Made by a program: the position numbers and the translations under genes | The notes under the pieces: generated by a model | What the model was told of the DNA's origin: nothing | The model's input: only the letters and a program-made list of their open reading frames with translations | Database searches by the model: none | Assembly: GCF_004123675.1 (NCBI RefSeq) | Contig: NZ_CP035417.1 | Location: 3,091,501 to 3,155,500 of the forward strand | DNA from: Leisingera sp. NJS204 | GTDB taxonomy: Bacteria > Pseudomonadota > Alphaproteobacteria > Rhodobacterales > Rhodobacteraceae | DNA: 64,000 bases | Direction of reading: 5' to 3' | In this document: positions 3,354 to 22,619 of the stretch, one piece after another | Numbering within the stretch: the first letter of the stretch is position 1 | Layout of the letters: each line of letters starts with the position of its first letter

Positions 3354-5732
3354 ATGAATATCAAACGGTCCACCGTGCTGCCGGTTCTGGTGATTGCGGT
3401 TGCGGCACTGCTTGCGGCACTGCTGATCGGCAGCATGGCGATGTATGCCTCCAGCCGGAAAGACGCGGTGCTGGAAGCCTCGCTTGAGGTGACCCGGCGC
3501 GCCAGCGGCGTCAGCACCGGCATCACGGCCGCCGAAGTTTATGCCCAAGACGTTCTGGCGATGACGCGGCTGATCCCGCAGGAAGACGTGGCCAGCCAGT
3601 TTCAATCTTACCTCAAGGAAATCAACAGCGATCTCAGCGCCTTGCTGAAGCAACCGCTGCCTGGGCCGCTGCGGGCTGAGGCTGAAGCCCTGAATCAGAC
3701 GCTGACGGAGTGGTGCGAATTGGCGGTTGTGCTTTTGGGCATCAAACCTGCAAAGGACATTCCCACTCTCAGCACATTGATGATGAGCAGCGAGGCGGTT
3801 ACCCGGCAAGCTGCCACTGTGACCGGTCTGGCGGCTGTGCATGCGGAACAGGCCATCGCGGCGGCGAACCGGGCGTTGTCCCGTATTTTTGTTCTGGGGC
3901 TGACCGGCACCGCGCTGCTTATGCTTGCAGCACTGATTTTTGCCTTTCGCAAGGCGCACGCCGTCTCCGGCGCGATGCAATTGGCGGCTTCCAAGCTGCG
4001 GCGGCTGGCAAGCCGCGAGCAATTTGCGCCCTCACAGGAAGCAAGTGAGATTTCTGCCGTATTTGCGGCGCTGGACACATTGGAAACCAGTCTGGAGGAA
4101 AAGAAGCGGATCGCCGAGCGGCTGCAGCAGGAAAAAGCCCGGGCGGAAGCTGCCACCGAGACCAAATCCCGCTTCCTGGCAACCATGAGCCACGAGATCC
4201 GCACGCCGATCAACGGGGTCCTGGGGATGGCGGAAGTGCTGAATGAAACCAGCCTCACATCTGAACAGCAATCCTGCACCGGAACCATTCTGGCATCGTC
4301 CGAGGCGCTGCTGCGCATCGTCAACGACATTCTCGATTTCTCCAAGCTGGAGGCCGGAAAAGAGCAGATGCTGGAGCAGCCCTTTAACCTGCGCGACGTG
4401 ATTTATGACGTCGCCACGCTGATGTCGCCCAGCGCATCCGCCAAGGGGCTGGAAATCTGTATCGACATCCCGGAAAACACGCCTGCCGTCTTTACCGGCG
4501 ACAGCGGCCGGGTGCGGCAGATTCTGATGAACCTGGTGGGCAACGCGGTAAAGTTCACTCTGGAAGGTTTTATCAGTATCACACTCAACTACGACGCCGG
4601 CCATGCTATTCCACTGTGCATTGATGTGCGCGACACCGGGGTCGGCATCCCCAATGACTGTATCGGCCAGATCTTTCATGCCTTCGAGCAAGTAGAAAGC
4701 ACCACCGCCCGGCGATTTGAGGGCACCGGTCTGGGCCTGGCCATCTCGTCCCGTTTGGCGCAGGCCATGGGCGGGCGGATCGATGTGGACTCGGAGAGCG
4801 GCACAGGGTCCTGTTTCACTGTCTGCCTGACGCTGCCTGTTGCCGCTCCTGCGCCGGTCCTTTCCCGGCCGCTTGCGGGCAAACTGGTGGCTGTGGCCGC
4901 GGATCTGGCCTTTGCCCGCGACGTGCGGCAGCGCCAGCTGGCTCTTTGGGGGGCAGACACAATCGCGCTTCACGGCATGGACGGGCTGCTGGAAAAAGTG
5001 GCGGCAATGGCTGCGGAACAGCGGCAGCCGGATCTGGTGCTGGTTGAAACCAGCCTGCCGCTGGAGCAAGCCAGAAACCTTTGCCGGAGCCTGCACAGCT
5101 TGCCCGGGTGCCGGGAGATGCCGATCGTTTTCTGCACCGGCGGTCAGATGCTGGCCGAATACGAAGTGTTGAAGGAGTGCAAGACGTTGCGTGTGCTGAT
5201 GAAACCGGCGCGCAACAAACTGCTTTTGCAGACCCTGCAGGAGGTCTTGAACTCCGGTGCGCCGCAGGCTGCCGCCGCGGTGCCGCCCAGCGCCGGGCAA
5301 ACAGCCGGGCAATTCAGCCACTTGCGCCTTCTGGCGGCTGAGGACAACCGTACCAACCAACTGGTTTTGCAGAAAATGCTGGCCCCTTCCGGCATTCAGC
5401 TGACCATTTGCAGCAATGGGCAGGAGGCGGTGGACACCTTCGCCGCACATCATTTCGATCTGGTGCTGATGGACATGTCGATGCCGGTGATGGATGGCAT
5501 TGAAGCCACCCGCCGCCTGCGGGCCTGGGAACAGGAAAACGGCCGGGCGCCCTGCCCTGTCCTTGCGCTGACCGCCAATGTGCTGAGCACCGACGAAGCG
5601 GCCTGCCGCGCTGCAGGCATGGTTGAATTTCTTTCCAAGCCGATGCGCAAGCAGCTGCTGCTGGAACAAATTGCCAAGTGGACTGATACGCCGTCTGCCA
5701 CTGATGCAACGCTGCAGGCCCGGCAAGCCTGA
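3354..5732 (+). CDS. Membrane hybrid sensor histidine kinase with receiver domain
   Basis: A 792-residue hybrid kinase. Two membrane helices (about 9-31 and 183-203) enclose a periplasmic sensor region of about 150 residues; a linker and coiled coil lead to HisKA with FLATMSHEIRTPINGVLGMA (phospho-acceptor His280), then HATPase_c with NLVGNAVKFT, DTGVGIP and GTGLGLAIS. Residues about 500-625 look like a degenerate receiver lacking the full acidic pocket, and residues about 645-780 are an intact receiver with LVLMDMSMPVMDG (Asp707) and a later LSKP lysine. It is a BarA/TorS-like architecture without an Hpt domain, so phosphate must leave through a separate Hpt protein. It sits 25 bp after the di-haem peroxidase gene; a redox signal is plausible but not shown. 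Confidence 0.93.
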   Translation: MNIKRSTVLPVLVIAVAALLAALLIGSMAMYASSRKDAVLEASLEVTRRASGVSTGITAAEVYAQDVLAMTRLIPQEDVASQFQSYLKEINSDLSALLKQPLPGPLRAEAEALNQTLTEWCELAVVLLGIKPAKDIPTLSTLMMSSEAVTRQAATVTGLAAVHAEQAIAAANRALSRIFVLGLTGTALLMLAALIFAFRKAHAVSGAMQLAASKLRRLASREQFAPSQEASEISAVFAALDTLETSLEEKKRIAERLQQEKARAEAATETKSRFLATMSHEIRTPINGVLGMAEVLNETSLTSEQQSCTGTILASSEALLRIVNDILDFSKLEAGKEQMLEQPFNLRDVIYDVATLMSPSASAKGLEICIDIPENTPAVFTGDSGRVRQILMNLVGNAVKFTLEGFISITLNYDAGHAIPLCIDVRDTGVGIPNDCIGQIFHAFEQVESTTARRFEGTGLGLAISSRLAQAMGGRIDVDSESGTGSCFTVCLTLPVAAPAPVLSRPLAGKLVAVAADLAFARDVRQRQLALWGADTIALHGMDGLLEKVAAMAAEQRQPDLVLVETSLPLEQARNLCRSLHSLPGCREMPIVFCTGGQMLAEYEVLKECKTLRVLMKPARNKLLLQTLQEVLNSGAPQAAAAVPPSAGQTAGQFSHLRLLAAEDNRTNQLVLQKMLAPSGIQLTICSNGQEAVDTFAAHHFDLVLMDMSMPVMDGIEATRRLRAWEQENGRAPCPVLALTANVLSTDEAACRAAGMVEFLSKPMRKQLLLEQIAKWTDTPSATDATLQARQA

Positions 5733-5792
5733 CACGCAGGGTCCCGGCCTATTGCTTTACCTGTGACGCGATGGCGCTGATCCGCCATGAAA

Positions 5793-5833
5793 ATCACGAC
5801 AATACACAAAATCACACTAAATCGTGATATAAT
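5793..5833 (+). promoter_or_regulatory. Candidate promoter/operator of the haem peroxidase gene
   Basis: A perfect -10 hexamer TATAAT lies at 5828-5833. A 7-bp inverted repeat, ATCACGA at 5793-5799 and TCGTGAT at 5822-5828, flanks the expected -35 position, and AAAATCAC occurs twice in the same stretch. No good -35 hexamer is visible, which is typical of activator-dependent promoters. It would give a leader of about 130 nt before the start at 5969. Inference from sequence pattern only. Confidence 0.4.
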
Positions 5834-5968
5834 GGGCGCCTGCCTGTGTCCCGGTTTGAGTGCATTTCCGGAACCTGGGAAGGCGTTTACCGGCACCGCT
5901 CGCACAGGGATGGCGCGCCGCACACAATGGCAGTTTTGGTGAAAGTTAATGAGTGATTGGGGGATCAC

Positions 5969-10524: not shown

Positions 10525-10599
10525 TGGGGTGTAGCCAAGTGGTAAGGCAGCAGTTTTTGGTACTGTGTATCGTAGGTTCGAATCCTACCACCCCAGCCA
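10525..10599 (+). tRNA. tRNA-Gln (anticodon TTG)
   Basis: A complete cloverleaf of 75 nt including encoded CCA. The acceptor TGGGGTG pairs with CACCCCA, the D stem GCC with GGC, and the anticodon stem GCAGT with ACTGT around the loop TTTTGGT (anticodon TTG, reading CAA). The T arm is GTAGG-TTCGAAT-CCTAC with discriminator G73. Its 3' end is the attachment site for the element that follows: the last 17 bases plus 7 more recur at 20909-20932. Confidence 0.97.
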
Positions 10600-10606
10600 T
10601 CGGCCT
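10583..10606 (+). repeat. attL core (tRNA-Gln 3' end)
   Basis: 24 bp starting TCCTACCACCCC and ending CATCGGCCT, identical at 20909-20932 and, inverted, at 13915-13938. It covers the 3' half of the T arm and the acceptor stem, the usual crossover zone for tRNA-targeting tyrosine integrases. Confidence 0.92.
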
Positions 10607-10781
10607 TTCACACAAGAAAATAAGCACCCGGCGCACCCACTAGCCCCGGAACTGCCCCCGGTTTCGGCCCCAGTGTTCCTGGACGATTTCGGTAAGCTGA
10701 CGAGGCCGCTTCCCCATGGCTTGAGAGTTGCTGGCGGGGCCGCTAGCTAGCTCAGATCTTGGGTAAGGCTGTACTTGGATC

Positions 10782-11288
10782 TGACCTCCCCCTAGTCGCG
10801 GGAGAGGCCGTTGGCGTTATGGCTGAGTATAGTCGGCATAGGGATAAGTAATGGAAGCGAACCGTTATCCCGGGAAATACCAACCAGAACAAACCACAAG
10901 TTCTTCCTTATCAAAGAACCAAAGAATCGAGGAGCTCAAGACGTTCCTGGAAGCGGCGCTGACGGCCCAGATAACCGGGTGAGCGGGGAATATGGCGAAC
11001 CTCCAAGTAATCATCCTCTCGATCCGGGGTTAGCTCCCGCACCTCATCCAGCCCCCGAATGTTATGCGACATTTCCACGAACTGCCCGAGCACCCTTAGA
11101 GCCGACGCTTTCATCCCGGCCTTCAACCGCTTGGCATAGGCGTAGTTGATGATGAAGCTGTCATGGACGCACAGGGCCGGTATTTCTATTCGCGTGAACG
11201 CCCTGATCAGCATGTTCGCCATGATGCTATCAATGTTCATCAGATAGATCCCTCGGTCAGCGCAGATATCGTCCCTGAGGAAGGGGTG
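10782..11288 (+). repeat. Left arm of a ~507-bp inverted repeat
   Basis: This stretch matches the reverse complement of 13234-13740. I found one mismatch in the coding part (a GCC/GTC codon change, Ala to Val) and none in the stretches compared beyond it. It holds the last 126 codons of the polymerase-like gene plus its downstream region. Outward of it (10607-10781 against 13741-13914) similarity drops to a clearly diverged but recognisable level. Confidence 0.9.
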
Positions 11289-12428
11289 TTTCTCCACGAA
11301 GGCATCCAGCACCTTGAACAACTCGGCATTCTTCATGGACTTCTCCTGGGAGCCAGTCGGCGCATCGTTCCTGAAAGCACTGCAGGCCTTGTTCCTCGAA
11401 GATGCATTCAAAGCCATTAGAACGAGAGACTTGACCAGCTTGCGTTGCTTGGCCGGATCCATGTCCTTAATCAGACCATCCTCCAGAACGTAGGGGTCGC
11501 TCTCGAGCTGAACGCCATGCTTCGCAGCCAGGATGGCTACGTGCAGGGCTCGGTAATCCACTTCGACGGTCGGCTGATCGTTGATGTGGATGCGTTGTCT
11601 CAACTCGCTTCCGCAGTTCTGCCACCAACCCCCAAAGAAACGCCCGCCACACCTCCAGTCATTCCGGTTGAATATGCGAACGACGTGATGATCAAAGCCG
11701 CCGATGGCAAGCCGCGCCATTTGACCGGTTCGCGGGCCTTCCTCGATTGGCCTGTCGATCCAAGGCTGCTCCAGATCAGGGATGTCGATAAAGGTGCGCT
11801 GCAGAAGCCAGTTATACCTCTCCAACTCCGCCCGCATCTTCACTGAATCCGGCGTGTCCACGTATTCGAGGTTGCGCTGAGACTTCTCGAGCCCTCGCAT
11901 CACGACGCTTTCTTTCTTGGGATGGATAAGGATGTGCTGCTGCCCAAACTTAACCTGACGGAACAGTCGGCAAAGTGATTCAGCTGCCCGGATGCGTGTG
12001 GTTCGGTTCGTGCTAGCTCTGGGTCCTGAGTAGCTACCAGCGGCGAACGCAATGAAGCCGCCATCATGCAGGCTATGAACAAGCTTGGGGGCCGCACGAG
12101 ACAGGCCAAACCAATTATAGCGGCTGCTAGCTGTCCACGCGGTGTTGTTCATGTCCACGGCAATGCTGAGCTCTGGATCTCTATCCCATGCTTCAAACAG
12201 ATTTAGCAGTAGGATTTCTAGCTGTTGTCTTCGGGTGGCCTTTGGTTTCACACCTCCTTTCTTGAGGGCAGTTGCTTCTGGCTCCCCAATGCACTGCTTC
12301 CAGACCAGATTGGTTAGCTTCGATACGTCAGGGTGCTTCGAAAAGCGGTGGATGTTGAGGGTCCGCGAGTAATACGGATCTGCGATGATCAGGTCATTGA
12401 GTTGCACTTCTGAGCGAAAGTTGTTCAT
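10911..12428 (-). CDS. Hypothetical protein with family A polymerase-like palm motifs
   Basis: A 505-residue protein of unknown function; ATG 12428 has AGGA seven bases upstream. The C-terminal half shows three motifs in the order found in family A DNA polymerases and single-subunit phage RNA polymerases. Residues 288-296 VEVDYRALH resemble motif A (DYSQIELR) with Asp291. Residues 327-342 KQRKLVKSLVLMALNA resemble the O-helix of motif B. Residues 421-424 VHDS resemble motif C (VHDE/IHDS) with Asp423. A conserved-looking GGRFFGGWWQ block (261-270) precedes motif A. The first 230 residues show no recognisable exonuclease or primase motif. It may be a replication, repair or primer-making enzyme of the element. 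The polymerase reading is inference from motif order; a structural prediction would decide it. Its last 126 codons are duplicated inverted at 13234-13611. Confidence 0.85.
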   Translation of the reverse strand: MNNFRSEVQLNDLIIADPYYSRTLNIHRFSKHPDVSKLTNLVWKQCIGEPEATALKKGGVKPKATRRQQLEILLLNLFEAWDRDPELSIAVDMNNTAWTASSRYNWFGLSRAAPKLVHSLHDGGFIAFAAGSYSGPRASTNRTTRIRAAESLCRLFRQVKFGQQHILIHPKKESVVMRGLEKSQRNLEYVDTPDSVKMRAELERYNWLLQRTFIDIPDLEQPWIDRPIEEGPRTGQMARLAIGGFDHHVVRIFNRNDWRCGGRFFGGWWQNCGSELRQRIHINDQPTVEVDYRALHVAILAAKHGVQLESDPYVLEDGLIKDMDPAKQRKLVKSLVLMALNASSRNKACSAFRNDAPTGSQEKSMKNAELFKVLDAFVEKHPFLRDDICADRGIYLMNIDSIMANMLIRAFTRIEIPALCVHDSFIINYAYAKRLKAGMKASALRVLGQFVEMSHNIRGLDEVRELTPDREDDYLEVRHIPRSPGYLGRQRRFQERLELLDSLVL

Positions 12429-13233: not shown

Positions 13234-13239
13234 CACCCC
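13224..13239 (+). other. att-core-like sequence at the breakpoint of the truncated gene copy
   Basis: The 16 bp CGATTTCTACCACCCC match the tRNA-Gln T-arm/acceptor sequence at 10579-10594 in 14 positions. Homology to the intact gene starts at 13234, inside this sequence, where both share CACCCC. It looks like a recombination junction between an att-type sequence and the gene. Confidence 0.5.
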
Positions 13240-13611
13240 TTCCTCAGGGACGATATCTGCGCTGACCGAGGGATCTATCTGATGAACATTGATAGCATCA
13301 TGGCGAACATGCTGATCAGGGCGTTCACGCGAATAGAAATACCGGTCCTGTGCGTCCATGACAGCTTCATCATCAACTACGCCTATGCCAAGCGGTTGAA
13401 GGCCGGGATGAAAGCGTCGGCTCTAAGGGTGCTCGGGCAGTTCGTGGAAATGTCGCATAACATTCGGGGGCTGGATGAGGTGCGGGAGCTAACCCCGGAT
13501 CGAGAGGATGATTACTTGGAGGTTCGCCATATTCCCCGCTCACCCGGTTATCTGGGCCGTCAGCGCCGCTTCCAGGAACGTCTTGAGCTCCTCGATTCTT
13601 TGGTTCTTTGA
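13234..13611 (+). pseudogene. Truncated inverted copy of the polymerase-like gene
   Basis: The 3' end of the 10911-12428 gene, beginning at codon 381 (HPFLRDDICADRGIYL) and running to the same stop. An internal ATG at 13282 leaves a 109-codon open frame identical to residues 397-505 except for one Ala-to-Val change. It keeps the motif C-like VHDS but lacks motifs A and B, so it cannot be an active polymerase by itself. No ribosome-binding site is evident before 13282. Near-identity with the intact copy shows a recent duplication or ongoing gene conversion. Confidence 0.85.
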
Positions 13612-13740
13612 TAAGGAAGAACTTGTGGTTTGTTCTGGTTGGTATTTCCCGGGATAACGGTTCGCTTCCATTACTTATCCCTATGCCGACTATACTCAGC
13701 CATAACGCCAACGGCCTCTCCCGCGACTAGGGGGAGGTCA
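13234..13740 (-). repeat. Right arm of the ~507-bp inverted repeat
   Basis: Reverse complement of 10782-11288. Together the arms flank a 1.9-kb unique segment (11289-13233) that could invert by homologous recombination. Confidence 0.9.
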
Positions 13741-13914
13741 GATCCAAGCACATCCTTACCCAAGATCTGATCCTGCTAGCGGCCCCGCCAGCGGTTTTCA
13801 AGCCAAGGGAAATCAGTCCCGCCAGCGCTCCGAAACTGCCCAGAAAAACGGGGGCCGAAAACGGGGGCAGTTCGGCTCTTTCGAGCTCGTCAGCGTCTTA
13901 TTCTATTGGAGGAA
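13741..13914 (-). repeat. Diverged inverted copy of the element's left end
   Basis: Read on the minus strand it aligns along its whole length with 10607-10781 (shared AACTGCCCCCG, CTGGCGGGGCCGCTAGC, CAGATCTTGGGTAAGG), but with many differences and one block replaced. It therefore comes from a related but distinct element. Confidence 0.7.
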
Positions 13915-13938
13915 AGGCCGATGGCTGGGGTGGTAGGA
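13915..13938 (-). repeat. Internal att core in inverted orientation
   Basis: Exact reverse complement of the 24-bp cores at 10583 and 20909. On the minus strand its left neighbour equals the element's right end (20678-20908) and its right neighbour resembles the element's left end (10607 onward), the configuration of a circular-form attP. Confidence 0.9.
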
Positions 13939-14169
13939 CGCCTTGCCCACCGATCCGCTTCATCGCCTTAGCCGCCCCGTCAGCAAACCTGGGGCCGTTC
14001 CTGGGGCGGTTCGGTAGCTAATGACCCGTCTCCGGGCAGCTAGCGACCTGCCAACAAAAGATCCCAGCCTAGAACCGTTGCCGAGCCGCTGCCAACTTCC
14101 CAGCCTGCCGCTATCGATCCGCTGACGAGAGGGGACGGTGGAGACCCGATGGTGGCGAGGCGTGGTGTG
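13915..14169 (-). repeat. Left arm of a perfect 255-bp inverted repeat
   Basis: Reverse complement of 20678-20932, compared base by base with no mismatch. The arms include the att core at their outer ends and enclose a 6.5-kb segment (14170-20677) carrying the integrase, XRE, YegP, DUF805 and TcmP/DUF5131 genes. Confidence 0.93.
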
Positions 14170-14279
14170 GGTGGAGATATGCGCTTGAAGCCCAGAGACA
14201 AGGTGCTAGGCTTTGGCAAGTCATTGATGGCAATGCAGAAAGCCTTCACTGTTTTACTTTTTTCGTCGGAAGTTTGCCA

Positions 14280-15620
14280 ATGCCAGGGAAATTCGAACTC
14301 TACGAGGATAATGCAGGTGAGTTTCGCTTCCGGCTAAAAGCTCGCAGCGGCGAGAACATTCTGGCTAGCGAAGGCTACAAGCAAAAGGCTAGTGCCGAGA
14401 ACGGCATCGAGTCGGTCAGGAAGAACGCCGGAGACGATGCGTGCTACGAGCGCAAGGAAACCTCCGCCGGAAAGCACATGTTCAACCTGAAAGCCAGCAA
14501 CGGTCAGGTGATCGGCACCTCGCAGAGCTACGCCAATGCGTCGGGACGGGACAACGGCATCGAGTCGGTCAAGAGGAATGCGCAGGACGCAGGTGTCGAC
14601 GATCTGAGTAGCGATCTGAGTCGGAACCGAATTGCTCAAGTCAGGTCCCTTGCACAAGCTCTTCCTGATCAAAGTGACATCGTCAAATTTGGCCTCACCG
14701 AGAAGGGCAAGGTACAACTCGTTGCCGTTCCGAATACGGCTGATGACGTGGAAAGGATCATCACCATTCGCGAAGAGCTGATTTCAGCAGATGGTCCAAT
14801 AGCTGCCTTGAGCACTCGCTACTCTCGGAATCCTAATGCCCCCCAAGCCGCCTTGCTCGAGAGGGTCATAGGGAGCTATGCAAAGGAGCTCAGCAAAGAC
14901 ATACACGACATCAACTTTGCTGTTCTGTTTGTAAGAGGCACCCGGCTAGTGTCCGCCTCAAATACAGCTCAGCACAATATTCAAACTGGAGAATGGCCTG
15001 ACTTCGAGCCCGAGGAACAAGAAGCGCTGGATTCCCTGATCGCTCTTCATGGCCCATTGATGATGGCTACGCCAGTCGGCAGAGACCTAGTGGCAGCTTC
15101 TAACGAGTTTGATGGCACGCCGGAGAAAAGCAAAGAAGAGGAAGGGCTTTTCCAAGAGCTTGCTGAAACGGTTGCTGACGAGACCGAAGTGTTTGAAGCC
15201 GAAACGCTGGATGCTATCCATGACATCACAACACCCGTTGAATTCGACCTTCATCCAGCAAGAACCCGCCGTCTCCGCGTTCTACTCGCAGGGTCCTTAC
15301 TAACTTCCGTTGCTGGGGCCTCTGCCTGGCTCGCTTCTCTGGGATCCTCTTTGGCACTGATACCGGCCGTAGGAGGAATGTTCATCTGGGAGGTGGTCAA
15401 AAAAACTGATGATTTTAAGTCTGTCACTGATTTGCTTGCGAAGGGCTATGATGGCATGCCCGATCAAGCGGCGGAACAGCTGAAGAATCTGAAGCGCATG
15501 TCGAAGCTGCTCGAGAAAAGGCGTGCGATGTTCACGAAGCTGGCTGACCTTCGCCCGGAATTTGGATGGGCAAAACGCTACATCAAACCCGAAGAAACAG
15601 TCGACGACGGCGAAGAGTGA
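14280..15620 (+). CDS. Tandem YegP (DUF1508) protein fused to an unknown membrane-anchored region
   Basis: A 446-residue protein. Residues about 4-53 and 56-103 are two YegP/DUF1508 repeats (each with a GIESV(R/K) turn), a small fold usually encoded alone as 60-110 residues. Residues 110-325 are unassigned and acidic toward the end. Residues about 331-373 are hydrophobic (RRLRVLLAGSLLTSVAGA, then LIPAVGGMFIWEVV), probably two membrane helices. A charged 70-residue tail follows. ATG 14280 is chosen over the in-frame TTG 14274 because GGAAG lies eight bases upstream and homology starts there. It is convergent with the DUF805 gene. The size and membrane anchor make it unlike ordinary YegP; a cargo or defence role for the element is speculation. 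Confidence 0.85.
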   Translation: MPGKFELYEDNAGEFRFRLKARSGENILASEGYKQKASAENGIESVRKNAGDDACYERKETSAGKHMFNLKASNGQVIGTSQSYANASGRDNGIESVKRNAQDAGVDDLSSDLSRNRIAQVRSLAQALPDQSDIVKFGLTEKGKVQLVAVPNTADDVERIITIREELISADGPIAALSTRYSRNPNAPQAALLERVIGSYAKELSKDIHDINFAVLFVRGTRLVSASNTAQHNIQTGEWPDFEPEEQEALDSLIALHGPLMMATPVGRDLVAASNEFDGTPEKSKEEEGLFQELAETVADETEVFEAETLDAIHDITTPVEFDLHPARTRRLRVLLAGSLLTSVAGASAWLASLGSSLALIPAVGGMFIWEVVKKTDDFKSVTDLLAKGYDGMPDQAAEQLKNLKRMSKLLEKRRAMFTKLADLRPEFGWAKRYIKPEETVDDGEE

Positions 15621-15704: not shown

Positions 15705-16331
15705 TTATACGGGGGCGTTCTTGAACTCGTCGGTAGGGACGAGAAGAAGGAACACTAGGAGCGCGAGGTTAGCTGGCGGAACGAGAACCAGCAGGAACCA
15801 CCATTGATTTACTCCGGTGTCTCGGGTTCGGCGAACCCCGAAAGCGAGGAGAACCGCTGCGACTGCTCCAATTGCCAGAAGCGACAGGACGCCTAACCAG
15901 CTATCAGGCTCCGTCAGAAACAGCGCGACCAACACCAGCGTCAGCAGACCGGTCACCACTTGCACGATCAAATACTCTCTTCGGGACACACGGCCAGAGA
16001 ACCCGAAAATGTAGTTCAGCAATGGTGCTGCGGCGGTATTCAATTCAGTTGCAGAGTGTTTACCGGTCCGAATGAGCTCTTCAGACGCCTCCGATGCTTG
16101 CGTTGCCGCCTGCTCAGCAGCCTTCTTCACTTTTGCATTTAGCGCTGGGTCGGTGATTGCCTTGTGAGCTCTTTTCACGCCCAACTCAGTCAGACGGATC
16201 AAAAATAGTCCACTGATGCCGATAGATACGATTGCCAACCAAACTGGATACGGCGGGTTGACAACGTACCATATGGTTGCGCCAGCAGCGGCTGTAGCGA
16301 GCAGCGAAAGTAGTGAAAGAAAACGATCCAT
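15705..16331 (-). CDS. DUF805 family membrane protein
   Basis: A 208-residue protein. Two membrane helices at the N-terminus (LLSLLATAAAGATIWYVV and VWLAIVSIGISGLFLI) are followed by a soluble stretch of about 50 residues and then a DUF805 domain: FGFSGRVSRREYLIVQ, LLAFGVRRTRDTGVNQWW and LVLVPPANLALLVFLL. DUF805 proteins (YhaH type) are inner-membrane proteins of unknown function, and the GRxxRxEY and RRxxDxG motifs are conserved here. Most members lack the extra N-terminal helix pair. It is divergent from the XRE gene across a region with operator-like palindromes, so it may be regulated by that repressor. Confidence 0.88.
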   Translation of the reverse strand: MDRFLSLLSLLATAAAGATIWYVVNPPYPVWLAIVSIGISGLFLIRLTELGVKRAHKAITDPALNAKVKKAAEQAATQASEASEELIRTGKHSATELNTAAAPLLNYIFGFSGRVSRREYLIVQVVTGLLTLVLVALFLTEPDSWLGVLSLLAIGAVAAVLLAFGVRRTRDTGVNQWWFLLVLVPPANLALLVFLLLVPTDEFKNAPV

Positions 16332-16785: not shown

Positions 16786-16941
16786 CAACACGTATTCCGC
16801 GAGCCAAGCCCAGTATGCCGCCGCATTAGTGAAGCTCTGAGCCCGAGCTGCCAGATCTTCAGCGGCCCTACGAGAAAGACCGCCATCGTATTCAGCGATA
16901 GCGGCCCTTTCTTCGAACTCCTCAATGTTGGGTGGTCTCAT
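16786..16941 (-). CDS. Small integrase-coupled ORF (51 aa)
   Basis: ATG 16941 overlaps the integrase stop codon in an ATGA arrangement, so it would be translated by coupling. The 51-residue product (NIEEFEERAAIAEYDGGLSR, then RRAAEDLAARAQ) resembles the short EYDGGLSR-type ORFs often found beside integrases in Rhodobacteraceae elements. Function unknown; an excisionase-like role is a guess. It is too short for most gene callers, and the overlap is the main evidence. Confidence 0.6.
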
Positions 16942-18248
16942 CCCGGCACCGGCAACCTGATCTGGTCTATGATGGACCGCTTCTGTTCGTCTGAGATGCC
17001 TGCGGAATAGATGCCGTAGGTGATCCCGTTCTCCGACCGCGCTGACTTATGACCCACCAGTGAAGCCGTGAAGTGCTCCGGGACACCTGTACGCTCGCAT
17101 TGAGTGATGAACCACTTCCGGGTCGAATGAAACACCAACCCTGGACGCTCCAGCCGCAACCGCTGCCGGGCCTTGGCAAACGCCTTGGTGATTTGGTTGA
17201 CGGTCAAGTCAGGGAACAACGGGCCGAACTCAGGCAACTCTCTGAAAAGGTCCTGCAACACTGGGTGCACCGGAACCAGTCTCTCCGCAGCATCCGTTTT
17301 CAACAGCCGCAGCTCATTTGGACGAACCCAAGCAAAGGTCCCGAGGTTGCCCTTCGACACCAGATCCTCGCGAAGCAGGCCAGCCGCTTCCCCGGCACGC
17401 ATCCCTGACAGTAGGCAGGTCAGAAACACCGGGTGCAGATCACCGCTTCGGTCAGCCAGCAGTCTCTGCACTTCCTCGTCCGTCGGCACTGCATAGGGTT
17501 TGGGCCGAACCTTCTGGTCAAACAGCACTGACTTGAAGGGATTGGCTTCCAAGGCCCCCTCATAGACGCACCAGTCGAGGAAATGGTTCACCTGCGACCA
17601 GATACGCTTCTGGGTCCGCACGGTTATCTTGGCTGCGCAGTTCTCCGAGAAAGACAGCAGACCGTCTAGGCTCAACCCTCTCGTTGACGCTGACTTGCCA
17701 ACTAGCGGGGACAGCTTGGCGATCAAACCAAGAAACTCCCTGCCGTCATCTCGCCCAAGGCTGCAGAGCGACCGTTCACCATACCGGCTAGCGAACAGCT
17801 CCACCGAATAGCGCACCGACTTGAACCCGCCATGGCGAAGCTGGCTGCTCCGGTGCCTCAAGTACATGTCAGCGCGGTCACCGATCAGAATCTTCTGCTT
17901 TGCGGCCAACCGGTTGAAGTCAGGCCGGTCAATAACTGCTCCGGAGTCTGCCAGAGAGGCCCGCAGGCGGTCGAGAGCGCCTTCTGGATTAGCTGCCCAT
18001 GCAGAGGCAGTTCTGCTGTTCCTTGGAGCGCTCAGTGCTTCCTCTGCGAGTGACCGAACCTCAGCCACCTGCGTTTCATAGCGAGCGTTCAATTCAGCTG
18101 CCCGGACGCGGGCGGTAGCGGCGTCTCTCGTCTTCAACGATTGTTTCAGAGCTTGCTGGCCGAGAGCCAGAGCTACGTCTTTCGGGTAATGGCGTCGATA
18201 GAGCCACGTGTGACCCTTCAAATACGCATACTTGATCTGAGCAGACAT
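16938..18248 (-). CDS. int: Tyrosine site-specific recombinase (integrase)
   Basis: A 436-residue phage-type integrase. The N-terminus (YLKGHTWLYRRHYPKDVALA) is the DUF6538-like arm-binding type, the core-binding domain spans about 110-235, and the catalytic domain follows with Arg284 (SGMRAGEAAG), His374-Ser-Thr-Arg377, His400 (VGHKS) and the tyrosine at 411 or 414. All expected catalytic residues are present, so it should be active. ATG 18248 has the strong site AAAGGAGG. Its likely targets are the 24-bp cores at 10583, 13915 and 20909; the tRNA-Gln site fits this integrase class. It lies downstream of two tiny ORFs and overlaps a third, forming one short operon. Confidence 0.95.
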   Translation of the reverse strand: MSAQIKYAYLKGHTWLYRRHYPKDVALALGQQALKQSLKTRDAATARVRAAELNARYETQVAEVRSLAEEALSAPRNSRTASAWAANPEGALDRLRASLADSGAVIDRPDFNRLAAKQKILIGDRADMYLRHRSSQLRHGGFKSVRYSVELFASRYGERSLCSLGRDDGREFLGLIAKLSPLVGKSASTRGLSLDGLLSFSENCAAKITVRTQKRIWSQVNHFLDWCVYEGALEANPFKSVLFDQKVRPKPYAVPTDEEVQRLLADRSGDLHPVFLTCLLSGMRAGEAAGLLREDLVSKGNLGTFAWVRPNELRLLKTDAAERLVPVHPVLQDLFRELPEFGPLFPDLTVNQITKAFAKARQRLRLERPGLVFHSTRKWFITQCERTGVPEHFTASLVGHKSARSENGITYGIYSAGISDEQKRSIIDQIRLPVPG

Positions 18249-18741: not shown

Positions 18742-18795
18742 ATGGCAACAGGAATCTACCATAGCTTGCAGATTCAGACGCAGACAGAGACTTGC

Positions 18796-19908
18796 ATGCC
18801 AAAGAGATTTTTCGAAGAACGTGGCGACCAGTCAGTAGTTAAAGCCCGTATAGTCCAGAAATACTTCGCCGCATGGGCGAACATCGTTGTCGGAACCGCA
18901 AGTAGATATGGTAGCGGGAAAATCGCTTACATTGACCTTTATGCTGGTCCGGGTCGGTATAGAGACGGAGCGGCTTCAACGCCCTTGTTGGTTCTCGAGG
19001 AAGCAATCAGAAATCCACGTGTACGCGGCGCCCTCGTTGCATTGTTCAACGATTTGGATGAGAATAACTCAGCAACGCTACAAGGTGAAATCGACGCGTT
19101 ACCAGGCATTGATCAACTAAGGTATAAACCTACGGTTCAATGCAATGCTGTTGGGAAGGACGCAGAGGACTATTTCTCAAAAGCTGAGCTCGTACCCTCG
19201 TTCACGTTCTTCGACCCGTTCGGATACAAGGGCCTGTCTCTTCGCTTGATCAATGGAGTGATCAAGGATTGGGGGTGTGATTGCGTGTTCTTCTTTAACT
19301 ACAATCGGATCAACGCAGGCCTCACAAATGATAAGGTCAAAGAGCATCTAGACGCTTTGTTCGGTGAAGATCGAGCGAAGCGGCTGAGAGACAAAGTGGA
19401 TGGTGCAAGCCCACTGGTTCGCCAAGAGCTGATTTTGGAGGAGCTGGCCAACGCGCTGACGGAAATGGGGGCGAATTTCGTTCTACCCTTCCGCTTTAAG
19501 AATGAGCAAGATCGGCTCACTCATCATCTTGTGTTTGTTTCAAAGGATTTCACCGGCTACCGAGTGATGAAGGAAATCATGCACAAGGAAAGCTCAACTG
19601 CAGACCAAGGTGTAGCTTCCTTCGCTTATTCGCCTGCTGACGAAAGCATGCCGTTGCTTTTTGAACTCACCCGCCCTCTTGATGACTTGGAGGGTATGCT
19701 ATTGGAAGAATATGCAGGTCGGACTCTAACTATGGACCAGATCTTTCGCGACCATAGCGTTGGGCGTCCTTACATCGCTAAGAACTACAAGGATGTTCTG
19801 ACGAAACTAGAGAAGGATGGAAAAATAGCTGTTACTGATCCTGAGAACAAGAAGCGTCGAGGGTTTGCAGGTAGGCTAGTCGTCACCTTCCCAAAGGCGG
19901 AAAATTAA
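18796..19908 (+). CDS. tcmP: Three-Cys-motif partner protein TcmP
   Basis: A 370-residue protein of the TcmP family, which by definition is encoded beside a three-Cys-motif (Gp37/Gp68, DUF5131) protein, as here. The first half reads as a Rossmann-type methyltransferase-like fold: IAYIDLYAGPGRY (43-55) resembles the SAM-binding loop, and FFDPFGYKG (138-146) stands where amino-methyltransferases have a [DN]PPY motif, with DPFG instead. FFFNYNRIN follows. The C-terminal region (about 280-360) looks like a winged helix. An upstream ATG at 18742 abuts the likely -10 hexamer and adds a non-homologous tail, so I use 18796. The stop overlaps the next ATG by one base (TAATG). Function of the family is not established to my knowledge; RNA or DNA modification is inference. 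Confidence 0.85.
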   Translation: MPKRFFEERGDQSVVKARIVQKYFAAWANIVVGTASRYGSGKIAYIDLYAGPGRYRDGAASTPLLVLEEAIRNPRVRGALVALFNDLDENNSATLQGEIDALPGIDQLRYKPTVQCNAVGKDAEDYFSKAELVPSFTFFDPFGYKGLSLRLINGVIKDWGCDCVFFFNYNRINAGLTNDKVKEHLDALFGEDRAKRLRDKVDGASPLVRQELILEELANALTEMGANFVLPFRFKNEQDRLTHHLVFVSKDFTGYRVMKEIMHKESSTADQGVASFAYSPADESMPLLFELTRPLDDLEGMLLEEYAGRTLTMDQIFRDHSVGRPYIAKNYKDVLTKLEKDGKIAVTDPENKKRRGFAGRLVVTFPKAEN

Positions 19909-20660
19909 TGGGAACAAACTCAAAAATCGAATGGACTGAGGCTACCTGGAACCCGGTTGCAGGCTGCAGTATCATATCCCCAGGCTGCACCAACTGTTAC
20001 GCGATGCGGATGGCTGAGCGCCTGGAAGCAATGGGACAGCCAAAGTATATGGCGCTTACCCGGCGATCGGGTGGGCGAGCAAAATGGAATGGCAAAGTCC
20101 GCCTCGACAGCGCCTCACTAGCCATTCCCTCCACATGGAAGAAGGGGCGAACGATCTTCGTCAACTCCATGTCGGATCTATTCCACGAAGAAGTTCCGTT
20201 AGCCTTCATTCAACAAGTTTTTGGCGTAATGAGGGACTGCCCTCAACACACATTCCAAGTTTTGACAAAGCGTTCGGAGCGTGTTGCCGAACTCTCATCA
20301 AGCTTGGACTGGTCTCCAAACATCTGGATGGGCGTTAGTGTTGAAAATGCCGATTACACTTTCCGTATAGACGATCTTCGTCGAACTGATGCCCTAGTAA
20401 AGTTTCTCTCTCTGGAACCTCTAGTTGGCGATTTAGGTCAGTTAAGGTTGCAGGGCATTGACTGGGCTATAGCAGGTGGTGAAAGCGGTCCAGGCGCTCG
20501 ATTTATGGACCCAGAGTGGGTGCGTTCGATCAGAGATCAGTGCGTTGCTGGCAGCGTTGCATTTCATTTCAAGCAATGGGGCGGCGTTAACAAGAAAAAG
20601 TCAGGACGGACCCTTGATGGAAGGACATGGGACGAGCTTCCTGAACGAGCCGTTGCATAA
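19908..20660 (+). CDS. Phage Gp37/Gp68-like three-Cys-motif protein (DUF5131)
   Basis: A 250-residue protein opening IEWTEATWNPVAGCSIISPG and carrying the family cysteine cluster Cys20-X6-Cys27-X2-Cys30. This is a spaced variant of the CX3CX2C cluster that binds the 4Fe-4S centre in radical SAM enzymes; the following YAMRMAERL helix and the internal repeating strands agree with a radical-SAM-like barrel. Further conserved blocks are FVNSMSDLFHEEVP, FQVLTKRSER, WMGVSVENADY, LSLEPLVG and WAIAGGESGPGAR. It is translationally coupled to TcmP. The pair occurs widely in phages and islands. The iron-sulphur and SAM roles are family-level expectation; the substrate is unknown. Confidence 0.9.
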   Translation: MGTNSKIEWTEATWNPVAGCSIISPGCTNCYAMRMAERLEAMGQPKYMALTRRSGGRAKWNGKVRLDSASLAIPSTWKKGRTIFVNSMSDLFHEEVPLAFIQQVFGVMRDCPQHTFQVLTKRSERVAELSSSLDWSPNIWMGVSVENADYTFRIDDLRRTDALVKFLSLEPLVGDLGQLRLQGIDWAIAGGESGPGARFMDPEWVRSIRDQCVAGSVAFHFKQWGGVNKKKSGRTLDGRTWDELPERAVA

Positions 20661-20677
20661 CCTAACCCATCCCTCCA

Positions 20678-20932
20678 CACACCACGCCTCGCCACCATCG
20701 GGTCTCCACCGTCCCCTCTCGTCAGCGGATCGATAGCGGCAGGCTGGGAAGTTGGCAGCGGCTCGGCAACGGTTCTAGGCTGGGATCTTTTGTTGGCAGG
20801 TCGCTAGCTGCCCGGAGACGGGTCATTAGCTACCGAACCGCCCCAGGAACGGCCCCAGGTTTGCTGACGGGGCGGCTAAGGCGATGAAGCGGATCGGTGG
20901 GCAAGGCGTCCTACCACCCCAGCCATCGGCCT
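20678..20932 (+). repeat. Right arm of the perfect 255-bp inverted repeat
   Basis: Reverse complement of 13915-14169 with no mismatch seen. It is the true right end of the integrated element and contains the attR core at its outer end. Confidence 0.93.
20909..20932 (+). repeat. attR core
   Basis: 24-bp direct repeat of the tRNA-Gln 3' end at 10583-10606. Only the T-arm and acceptor part is repeated, so there is no second tRNA gene here. Confidence 0.92.
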
Positions 20933-21010
20933 CTCACACAAGAAAACAAGCACCCGGCGCACCCGTTAGCCCCGAAAGGGCCCCCGGTTTCGGCCCCAGT
21001 GTTTTGGCGT
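20933..21010 (+). repeat. Second copy of the sequence that follows tRNA-Gln
   Basis: This stretch aligns with 10607-10685 with about ten differences (shared TCACACAAGAAAA, AAGCACCCGGCGCACCC and CCGGTTTCGGCCCCAGTGTT). So either the homology at the attachment site is about 100 bp long, or a second element's left end lies beyond attR, with the rest lost. Confidence 0.7.
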
Positions 21011-21409
21011 GCTGCTAGAGGCTTCAAACGGGTGTTCAGGGTGGGTCGGGAGGCCCCCAGTCAACCGCTGGAGGCCATCGCCACGGGTTAGAGCAGGCTG
21101 AAGTACACACCGTTTGCCCAGTGATCCCAGTCGTCGCGCTTGTTATCCGCCGCTGACCCCTCCACCAGATGCTCTGGCCGACAGCATAGTTCGTTACCGC
21201 ACCGGTGCCGAACCATCGTCGTCGTCCCGATGACCGCTCGGTTGGCGACACAGTAGACGAACCTCGCCGCCGCTACCTGCCGCCCTCGGAACCGCATCTT
21301 GGGCCGTTGCTGAGTGGCTTTTACCCAGCATCCGTTCTCATCCTCCTGGACGTGTCGCGGTTTGATGCCGCTCCTTTGATAGCATTTATTGCAGCAAAGG
21401 AGACGAACT

Positions 21410-21685
21410 ATGGGACTGAAACGGACAGAAGAATTCCGGGCCGATGCGGTGCGGATTGCGCTGACGCGCGGGCTGAGCAGGAAGCAAGTGGCCTCTGATT
21501 TGGGTGTTGGCCTTTCGACCCTGAACAAGTGGATCACAGCGCATCGCGACACCGAGGTGGTATCCGACAAAGACCTCGACCTTGCCCGAGAGAATGAACG
21601 GCTTCGACGGGAGAACCGCATTCTCAAGGAGGAGAGGGAGATCTTAAAAAAGGCAACGCAGTTCTTCGCGGGCCAAAAGCCATGA
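21410..21685 (+). CDS. IS3-family transposase OrfA
   Basis: A 91-residue OrfA: an N-terminal helix-turn-helix (FRADAVRIALTRGLSRKQVA, then LGVGLSTLNKWI) and a leucine-zipper-like coiled coil (ARENERLRRENRILKEER). It recognises the terminal repeats and assists OrfB. ATG 21410 follows AAAGGAG; an in-frame ATG at 21389 is not needed. Its stop overlaps the OrfB start as ATGA, so OrfB would be made by translational coupling rather than only by frameshifting. Intact. Confidence 0.92.
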   Translation: MGLKRTEEFRADAVRIALTRGLSRKQVASDLGVGLSTLNKWITAHRDTEVVSDKDLDLARENERLRRENRILKEEREILKKATQFFAGQKP

Positions 21686-22619
21686 GGTTCAGGTTCATCG
21701 AAGAACACACTGATACCTTCAGCGCCAAGCGGATGTGCAATGTGCTGGATGTCAGTGAGCGCGGTCTACGGGCCTATCGCAGCCGCCCGGCCAGTCAAAG
21801 GCAGCGCACTGACATGGTCGTTCTGGCGCATATCAAGGAACAATCTCGCCTCAGCCTGGGCAGTTATGGCCGCCCACGGATGACCGAGGAACTGAAGGAG
21901 TTGGGCCTGAACATTGGCCATCGTCGCGTCGGGCGTTTGATGCGTGAGAATGGCATCCGTGTCGAACGATCTAAGAAATACAAGGTGACGACCATTGCCC
22001 GGCAGACGATTGCGAAGCAATCAGCCGAGAGGGGGACAGCAACCACGCCTTCAACATCGCACCCAATCTGCTGAACCGGGATTTCTGCGCAGATGCGCCC
22101 AATCAGAAATGGGCAGGTGACATAAGTTACGTGTGGACGCGCGAGGGCTGGCTCTACCTGGCGGTGATCCTTGATCTGCATTCCCGGCGGGTGATCGGTT
22201 GGGCCATCAGCAATCGGATGAAGCGGGACTTGGCGATCCGGGCGCTGAACATGGCTATAGCCTTCAGATCACCGCCTATGGGCTGCATTCATCATACGGA
22301 TCGTGGATCGCAATACTGTTCTCATGACTATCAGATAATCCTGCGACAACACGGGTTCAGCGTGTCCCCCTCTCATGCATGTAAACATGCACTGCCGGGG
22401 CAGTGGATGAGCGGCAAAGGAAATTGCTATGACAATGCGGCCATCGAGACCTTCTTCAAGACGATCAAGGCAGAGCTGATCTGGCGAAGGTCGTGGCCAA
22501 CGCGTAGGGCCGTTGAACTGGCCATCTTCAACTACATCAATGGCTTCTACAATCCGCGACGGCGGCACTCAGCATTGGGCTGGAAAAGCCCCGTCGCATT
22601 CGAACGGAAAGTGGCCTAA
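21682..22619 (+). pseudogene. IS3-family transposase OrfB, frameshifted
   Basis: An integrase-fold (DDE) transposase read in two frames. Residues 1-117 (starting MRFRFIEEHTDTFSAKRMCN) are in the first frame. The continuation, from DSNHAFNIAPNLLNRDFC through the catalytic core, is in the -1 frame, the switch falling at the GGGGG run 22031-22035. The core keeps GDISYVWT, HHTDRGSQYCSH and NCYDNAAIETFFKTIKAE, so the DDE residues are intact and one base in the G run would restore it. A 13-codon in-frame palindromic insertion sits between the second Asp and the Glu motif. Likely inactive unless ribosomes slip or the G-run count is wrong. Confidence 0.85.
22368..22406 (+). repeat. 39-bp in-frame palindromic insertion in orfB
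   Basis: It adds 13 codons (PSHACKHALPGQW) where relatives run from GFSVS directly into MSGKGNCYDN. It consists of two perfect palindromes: TGCATG-TAAA-CATGCA (22376-22391) and CACTGCC-GG-GGCAGTG (22390-22405). Confidence 0.6.

Follow-up and report, generated by a model that had tools for sequence, protein, structure and literature searches.

An open reading frame (ORF) in the window, by which we mean the whole 64,000-nucleotide stretch of DNA that was analyzed, encodes a 505-amino-acid protein with motifs resembling those of family A polymerases, and the question raised by this locus is what so small a polymerase would do there. The evidence points to a superfamily A nucleic acid polymerase of the TV-Pol type that is likely the replication protein of a 10.3-kb island, inserted by a tyrosine recombinase into the 3' end of a tRNA-Gln gene.

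The first-pass annotation had proposed both this ORF and the motif A/B/C order of superfamily A polymerases within it, and both are borne out. The gene is on the minus strand, and the plus-strand frame across the same interval is interrupted by stops. VEVDYRALH is motif A and carries D291, KQRKLVKSLVLMALNA starts 36 residues past D291, and VHDS, which is motif C and contains D423, starts 130 residues past D291. These motif positions are among the most conserved in 2 alignments, one of 55 rows (55 of the 64 long, nonredundant ORFs, window protein included, with very long or partial ones omitted) and one of 44 rows (the window protein and proteins of viral contigs). D423 is found in 55/55 and 44/44 rows, D291 in 54/55 and 44/44, and N206 and F253 each in 55/55 rows of the larger alignment. 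R263, R329, and K333 are each found in 52/55 and 44/44 rows, D311 in 51/55 and 44/44, and E289 and H422 each in 50/55 and 44/44, while G262, R277, Y313, and N341 are each present in all 44 of the window and viral rows. Active-site residues are lost in a few members, and in one of them (L014) Arg replaces the motif C His. The R329-x3-K333-x7-N341 spacing is the same as that of R754/K758/Y766 in Pol I and that of R627/K631/Y639 in T7 RNA polymerase, the latter being invariant columns in an alignment of T7-type enzymes.

Searches with the window polymerase gave no Pfam, NCBIfam, or PADLOC match, and neither phmmer nor a profile search found a relative among PDB sequences, the best single match having an E value of 0.46. 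Its PHROG match is phrog_4756 (E 5.6e-42, residues 250-449), a family annotated as of unknown function and of which we found no mention in the open-access literature searched. The protein had been described as having no visible exonuclease domain, and indeed none was found, nor is there a nuclease among the Pfam families shown for the window protein or for other members.

A polymerase of this superfamily would be expected to have a palm domain, and one is predicted in the AlphaFold model of the protein (mean pLDDT 79.3, pTM 0.74), in which the 10-residue mean pLDDT is 88-98 across residues 251-450. A strand at 285-292 ends near D291 of motif A, a single helix at 325-341 holds R329, K333, and N341, and a hairpin at 418-421/424-428 turns at H422-D423 of motif C. 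The motif A strand and motif C hairpin are palm-like, and the fold match implies that D291 and D423 would sit together in one palm site. Strands 249-253 and 261-266 form a beta hairpin before the palm that supplies R263. In the region where TV-Pols (see below) have a thumb made of two antiparallel helices, helix 193-210 is confidently modeled, and helices 221-225 and 235-242 fall in or beside a stretch with pLDDT below 50. Foldseek comparison with the PDB returned 54 matches at E <= 0.001 (best E 6.9e-6), and every one of the best 50 of the 54 is a family A DNA polymerase; TM scores of about 0.3 are expected where a match covers the palm and fingers only. Against BFVD, the top 11 matches are phage proteins of 400-450 amino acids (E <= 1.9e-17, TM by query 0.47-0.65), led by a Barba31A protein annotated as a DNA polymerase (E 2.5e-21), with Pol I and phage RNA polymerases intermixed at lower ranks. 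The N-terminal domain is of mixed alpha/beta structure. When its 232 residues were modeled alone (pLDDT 68), the best Foldseek match had E 0.027 and none was below 0.001; many of those listed are MarR-type winged helices, and we regard a winged helix as no more than a tentative suggestion.

The features surrounding the gene are collected in Table 1. Direct att repeats, which are copies of the tRNA-Gln 3' end, lie 10,326 bp apart with the 10.3-kb island between them, so the satellite-sized element suspected from the sequence is present. No other replication gene was recognized among the 6 island ORFs that were scanned. Neither of 2 other roles that had been floated, in defense or as a template-independent enzyme, found anything in its favor, the polymerase being without a PADLOC match. 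Elsewhere in the island, the adjacent TcmP and DUF5131 genes (18742-20660) match candidate defense models of PADLOC as a pair.

Table 1. Features of the island and its integration site, in positions of the window.
Feature	Position	Strand	Remarks
tRNA-Gln (TTG), integration target	10525-10599	plus	ARAGORN
attL (tRNA-Gln 3' end and island left end)	10583-10677	plus	93% direct repeat of 20909-21003
Left arm of long inverted repeat	10583-11288	plus	att core, left end, polymerase 3' end
Polymerase gene (divPolA2 / phrog_4756, TV-Pol type)	10911-12428	minus	505 aa; D291, R329, K333, D423
Right arm of inverted repeat	13234-13938	minus	93.6% over 707 columns
Inverted copy of polymerase 3' end	13282-13611	plus	residues 397-505, with a single codon change (A418 to V)
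attI (inverted att core, 13922-13938, and inverted right-end flank)	13915-14178	minus	98.9% over 265 columns to 20669-20932
DUF1508 protein, 448 aa (cargo)	14274-15620	plus	
DUF805 protein (cargo)	15705-16331	minus	DUF805 gene also in sister island L215
Tyrosine recombinase (integrase)	16938-18248	minus	N-terminal DUF6538
TcmP three-Cys-motif partner protein	18742-19908	plus	PADLOC candidate PDC-M30A
DUF5131 protein	19908-20660	plus	PADLOC candidates PDC-M41B and PDC-M30B
Island right-end flank	20669-20908	plus	repeated inverted beside attI
attR	20909-21003	plus	

The association with a tRNA gene and an integrase recurs among relatives. We compared 63 loci, namely the window, 2 plasmids, and 60 genome stretches from the matches found, some genomes giving 2. 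A tRNA gene with the polymerase gene on its 3' side is found in 41/63 (including L137, where the tRNA call lies inside the polymerase gene and may be false), and in 23 of these 41 the stretch also contains a direct att repeat; those of L097 and L127 lie in neighboring stretches and are 17 bp exact each. An integrase relative, detected with a profile built from these same loci, is present at 42/63 loci, with the integrase in pieces in L097, L126, and L144. Among 20 control stretches taken 0.1-0.4 Mb from such loci, 3 have a tRNA and none an integrase relative, and the comparison for any tRNA (41/62 loci vs 3/20 controls) gives a Fisher p of 7.6e-5. Tandem islands occur in L128 and L215.

The second of these, L215, is a sister of the window island, with a tRNA-Gln, an integrase 71% identical, and both direct and inverted att copies. 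It has no polymerase-profile match in 20 kb, and its genome is absent from the 53 family genomes in which the window protein finds a match. Between the tRNA and the inverted att, L215 instead encodes a 488-amino-acid protein that matches DUF5906 (E 9.4e-21), the VapE-like family (E 1.9e-4, under the family cut-off), and PHROG families labeled "DNA primase" (best 8.8e-28). DUF5906/VapE proteins are SF3-type helicases. In this one case, a DUF5906 helicase-like replication gene appears to fill the slot of the polymerase. Relatives of it were seen only in L215, where it replaces the polymerase, and in L219, where it lies beside one, out of 72 loci in which divergent helicases could escape detection. 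Same-place exchange of replication genes is the argument that was used for TV-Pols in 2008 (PMC2579912). Against the replication reading stand the rarity of this helicase and the 22/63 loci, including some on short contigs, in which no tRNA is found with the polymerase gene on its 3' side.

We lean toward DNA rather than RNA synthesis, which is favored by the fold match and the context and not by the active site. The position of Pol I E710 (D+5, equated by ungapped motif A spacing) is His in 43/55 and 42/44 rows, and, by ungapped motif B spacing, the position of F762 (K+4) is Leu or Asn in 41/55 and 40/44 rows and that of Y766 (K+8) is Asn in 46/55 and 44/44. Pol I proper (PF00476) was rejected as an identity since there is no Pfam match and no exonuclease and since His, Leu/Asn, Asn, and HDS stand in place of the Pol I residues. 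Nor does the protein fit the T7-like RNA polymerases (PF00940), since it has no match to that family and carries His at D+5 and Asn at K+8, not the Gly and Tyr (G542 and Y639) that are invariant in the T7-type alignment. Profile comparison with a set of 6 Pol I sequences gave E 4.3e-4 and probability 34 for the 44-row alignment and E 0.0033 and probability 10 for the 55-row alignment, and it aligned GGR and motif A, the latter with its Pol I counterpart. Comparison with 2 T7-type sequences was weak (E 0.01 and 0.02, probability 4 and 2) and aligned motif C with the T7-type motif C; the large subunit of the N4 RNA polymerase was part of an alignment together with the enzymes of T7 and KASIA but not of this comparison. 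None of these profile alignments is strong singly, and their motif registers match those of the first-pass annotation.

Could the protein nonetheless be a single-subunit RNA polymerase like those of T7 or N4, which transcribes the island or, in phages, the phage genes? Its motif C reads HDS as in T7 RNA polymerase, a D-x-Y motif follows motif A, the steric-gate Glu of Pol I is mostly His, and PF00940 is the sole Pfam family that matches more than 2 of the 55 members (weakly, in 6/55, best E 0.012). In phage KASIA, the gene is 3 genes away from an annotated RNA polymerase gene, and the paper on divPolA2 leaves such a role standing (PMC11348598). Weighed against this, the best 50 PDB fold matches are DNA polymerases, the T7-type Gly and Tyr are replaced, no N-terminal domain of T7 type shows up in Pfam, an annotated RNA polymerase is already present in KASIA, and the swap with a helicase-like replication gene in L215 suits replication better. 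We consider an RNA polymerase unlikely. Since this branch lacks both the ribose-gate Glu and the motif B Tyr of Pol I, it may be informative on the shifts of a single fold among the tasks of making DNA, making RNA, and priming.

The first-pass annotation was wrong in calling the protein undescribed. Its phage relatives are the phrog_4756 proteins named divPolA2 in 2024, and it fits the TV-Pol family of predicted primase-polymerases of mobile elements (Iyer, Abhiman, and Aravind, 2008; PMC2579912), for which Rhodobacterales are among the species and lambda-type integrases or resolvases are among the neighbors. The window protein shares with TV-Pols a length of 400-600 amino acids, a superfamily A core, a mobile element with a recombinase as neighbor, and the lack of a nuclease. 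The 2 metal-binding Asp residues of the TV-Pol palm correspond to D291 and D423, the Arg from the beta hairpin before the palm to R263, and the Asp and RxxxK of the fingers to D311, R329, and K333; the recombinase-bearing element of that description is matched by the integrase counts given above (42/63 loci vs 0/20 controls). There are also differences. The TV-Pol text stresses linkage to a D5 helicase, whereas a related helicase is rarely seen here; the TV-Pol N-terminal domain is all-helical, whereas that of the window protein is mixed; and the targeting of tRNA genes and the inverted internal att seen here were not found in the accessible text of the TV-Pol description (PMC2579912). That text names Microcystis phage Ma-LMM01 among the TV-Pol carriers with the gene left unspecified. 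In 100 of the 162 kb of this phage, the best ORF is gp030 (506 amino acids, beside a transposase gene), a weak match at E 0.012-0.023 whose motif YDVVKCH has His at D+5.

The characterized point of comparison is CCPol-MP, an active A-family polymerase and primase (PMC7581432). CCPol was, to the knowledge of the authors of that 2020 eLife paper, the only biochemically characterized member of its family; its priming needs an OB-fold partner, and the PolA-SSB pairs are all in Bacillota according to the accessible text (PMC10061031). What these systems have in common with the island is a replication module of a mobile element that combines an A-family polymerase and a site-specific recombinase. 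CCPol closely resembles Pol I and retains the equivalents of E710 and F762, where the window branch has His and Leu/Asn, so the window branch differs from its characterized relative. By analogy with CCPol-MP only, the island polymerase would perhaps also synthesize primers. We found no open-access paper that joins most of the terms TV-Pol, divPolA2, tRNA, integrase, Rhodobacter, and polymerase. With its family in print since 2008 (TV-Pol) and 2024 (divPolA2), the novelty of the protein itself appears low.

In phages, the relatives have different company. The divPolA2 proteins of barbaviruses and other phages belong to the same family by sequence and fold, with a globular N-terminal domain, no exonuclease, and the phrog_4756 assignment, and their role was left between repair polymerase and RNA polymerase (PMC11348598). 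The window gene is in a chromosomal integrative island, in contrast to divPolA2, which is found in phages beside a regular polymerase, sometimes as 2-3 paralogues, and in variable neighborhoods (PMC11348598). The gene table of phage Barba9A likewise lists a regular polymerase beside divPolA2. Because these phages also carry a regular polymerase, divPolA2 is not the main replicase there, which counts against the replication reading. This coexistence and the variable neighborhoods would suit an accessory polymerase of mobile elements, active in repair, gap filling, or translesion synthesis and dispensable for replication. In islands, however, the gene is tied to an integrase and an attachment site and is the only replication gene recognized among the ORFs scanned, and we regard an accessory role as improbable there. 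Three viral contigs of 89-93 kb (L169/L170, L156/L176, and L166/L189) have 2 distant polymerase gene copies each, and a contig of another genome (G478, C13) has an inverted C-terminal polymerase piece about 4.6 kb from the main gene (28-1056 and 5635-5847).

At E <= 0.001, the phrog_4756 searches matched 13/101 near genomes, 32/385 genomes of the class, and 17/299 of the phylum, with 0/14 control genomes matching in each of the three, and the window protein itself as query matched 53/394 genomes of the family; these 4 sets have genomes in common, that of the window being in all of them. Among phage records, 155/50,697 match, 115 of them Rheinheimera phages, and none of the 155 covers over 80% of the query in one place. 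Barba phages match the window protein at E 4e-7, and 4/72,556 plasmids match. Three narrower alignments found 0, 5, and 56 viral-contig loci, partly the same ones, and with the window protein alone as query the only match was one of 24 residues in a single genome contig, none being viral. In a tree of 97 rows, made by a quick method and with many long branches elsewhere, the window falls in a 10-row clade (SH-aLRT 98); a tRNA is in reach for 7/10 members, and it is tRNA-Gln in all 7. Virus and bacterial rows are mixed in this tree, with 10 changes by parsimony of which at least 6 are forced by well-supported branches, so transfer of the gene between phages and islands is probable.

In L117 (1-20000), a unit of 8,949 bp is repeated in tandem with 99.9% identity over 8,768 bp. 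It encodes the polymerase, RepA_C, a ParA-like ATPase, a serine resolvase, and a DNA methyltransferase and forms a plasmid-like circle or array. L197 (1-9111) is an array on a viral contig with unequal repeats at offsets of 4,659 and 3,347 bp, and its unit of tyrosine recombinase, polymerase, and one or more unknown ORFs is possibly a minimal element. The tandem copies were dropped as proof of a polymerase-only replicon, since L117 has RepA_C and the L197 units are unequal and hold both integrase and polymerase. The RepA_C initiator beside the polymerase gene in the 8.95-kb plasmid-like unit counts against a replication role.

Copying of the excised circle is the function best supported by context, although unproved. 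In the cycle that we infer, with a catalytically active polymerase, excision, and replication of the circle, the integrase would excise the island as a circle, and the N-terminal domain, perhaps a winged helix, would grip the origin or template. The polymerase, possibly helped by proteins of the host, would then start and/or extend DNA strands on this circle, and copies of the circle would re-integrate at tRNA genes.

The part of this locus that appears new is the architecture of an island with an inverted attachment site. The window attI has the island left end, inverted, on one side (to 13234) and the right end, also inverted, on the other (to 14178), and in sequence it looks like an inverted attP. 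Identity between the arms is 155/200 columns beside the core (40, 37, 33, and 45 per 50) and 505/506 past 200 columns from it. As the polymerase 3' end is inside the arm, the gene would be inverted by arm-arm recombination but stay complete.

An inverted att copy at E <= 0.001 is found in 10 of the 41 tRNA-linked loci (the window, L097, L098, L104, L110, L122, L126, L127, L128, and L144), as well as in L215, which is outside the 41. The arms within an island are 94-100% identical over 72-707 bp in the window, L097, L098, L104, L110, L126, L127, and L215 and are weaker in L128 (89-93%), L144, and L122. Between ten islands compared, the left ends are at most 71% identical over 80 bp, with additional stretches of 20-37 bp at 84-100%, which indicates that the copies are made or kept alike island by island. 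The inverted site separates the integrase from the polymerase in 8/10 (all but L122 and L128) and from the helicase in L215. An inverted match in L122 (29 columns, 90%) and the full inverted att of L128 (13362) lie beyond both genes. Between the two genes of L128 there is just a copy of the right-end flank, near 4568-4658, and L128 conforms only when this copy is counted as the site. L144 is degraded, with an inverted match of 20 bp at 95% and broken pieces of polymerase and integrase. The gene adjacent to the tRNA is the polymerase in the window, L097, L126, L127, and L144 and the integrase in L098, L104, and L110, and the polymerase gene shares the strand of the tRNA in L097, L127, and L144 and takes the opposite one in the window, L126, and L128. 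The other 31/41 loci have no inverted att copy at this threshold, so the family does not need one.

The inverted site can be read in three ways. It may be functional, serving inversion or an amplification like that of the 2-micron plasmid; it may be a by-product, in which a second copy enters an inverted site and a deletion follows; or it may be the product of aberrant replication. Tandem insertions do occur (L128, L215). Near-identity within islands fits a functional site and also a recent by-product or aberrant replication, while the diverged 200 bp beside the window core argue against a simple functional reading. One could go further and see the polymerase gene as a decaying passenger and its inverted fragment as debris of tandem insertions and deletions, given that some relatives are stop-broken or partial (G210, G476, and G578), that islands occur in tandem, and that most tRNA-linked loci lack the inverted att. 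The window gene, however, has an uninterrupted frame of 505 codons and retains its catalytic residues, and its 3' end and the copy of that end in the repeat are distinguished by a single codon; decay is thus highly improbable here.

The yeast 2-micron plasmid has 2 inverted recombination sites inside long inverted repeats, a tyrosine recombinase, and a gene end inside the repeat. The sequence of the integrated island is similar in having long inverted repeats that each contain the att core, nearly identical far from it and diverged near it. Unlike the plasmid, the island is chromosomally integrated and has a third, direct att, and both inversion and amplification are hypothetical here. An excised circle with 2 inverted attP-like sites would consist of an integrase half and a polymerase half. 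The integrase, presumed from the att sequence to act on attI, could flip one half during replication and convert theta to double rolling-circle replication, or it could switch the gene toward or away from the tRNA promoter; ending in the repeat, the polymerase gene would survive the flips. Such a bacterial counterpart of the 2-micron plasmid is, in our estimation, a long shot. If the inverted att pair does work, bacteria would have recombinase-driven island flipping or amplification of a kind that is, to our knowledge, known only from yeast plasmids. We found no description of an island with an inverted att in the open-access literature searched, nothing in the accessible parts of that literature stood out as a bacterial integrative element of the 2-micron kind, and the accessible text of the Charybdis preprint mentions neither "tyrosine recombinase" nor "inverted".

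Directly to the right of attR (21088-22619), an HNH-type ORF (21088-21708) is overlapped by ORFs that, by eye, encode an IS3-like transposase. An ORF of the same Pfam kind is present at the left end of island L215, and the one beside attR may be what is left of another island once inserted in tandem.
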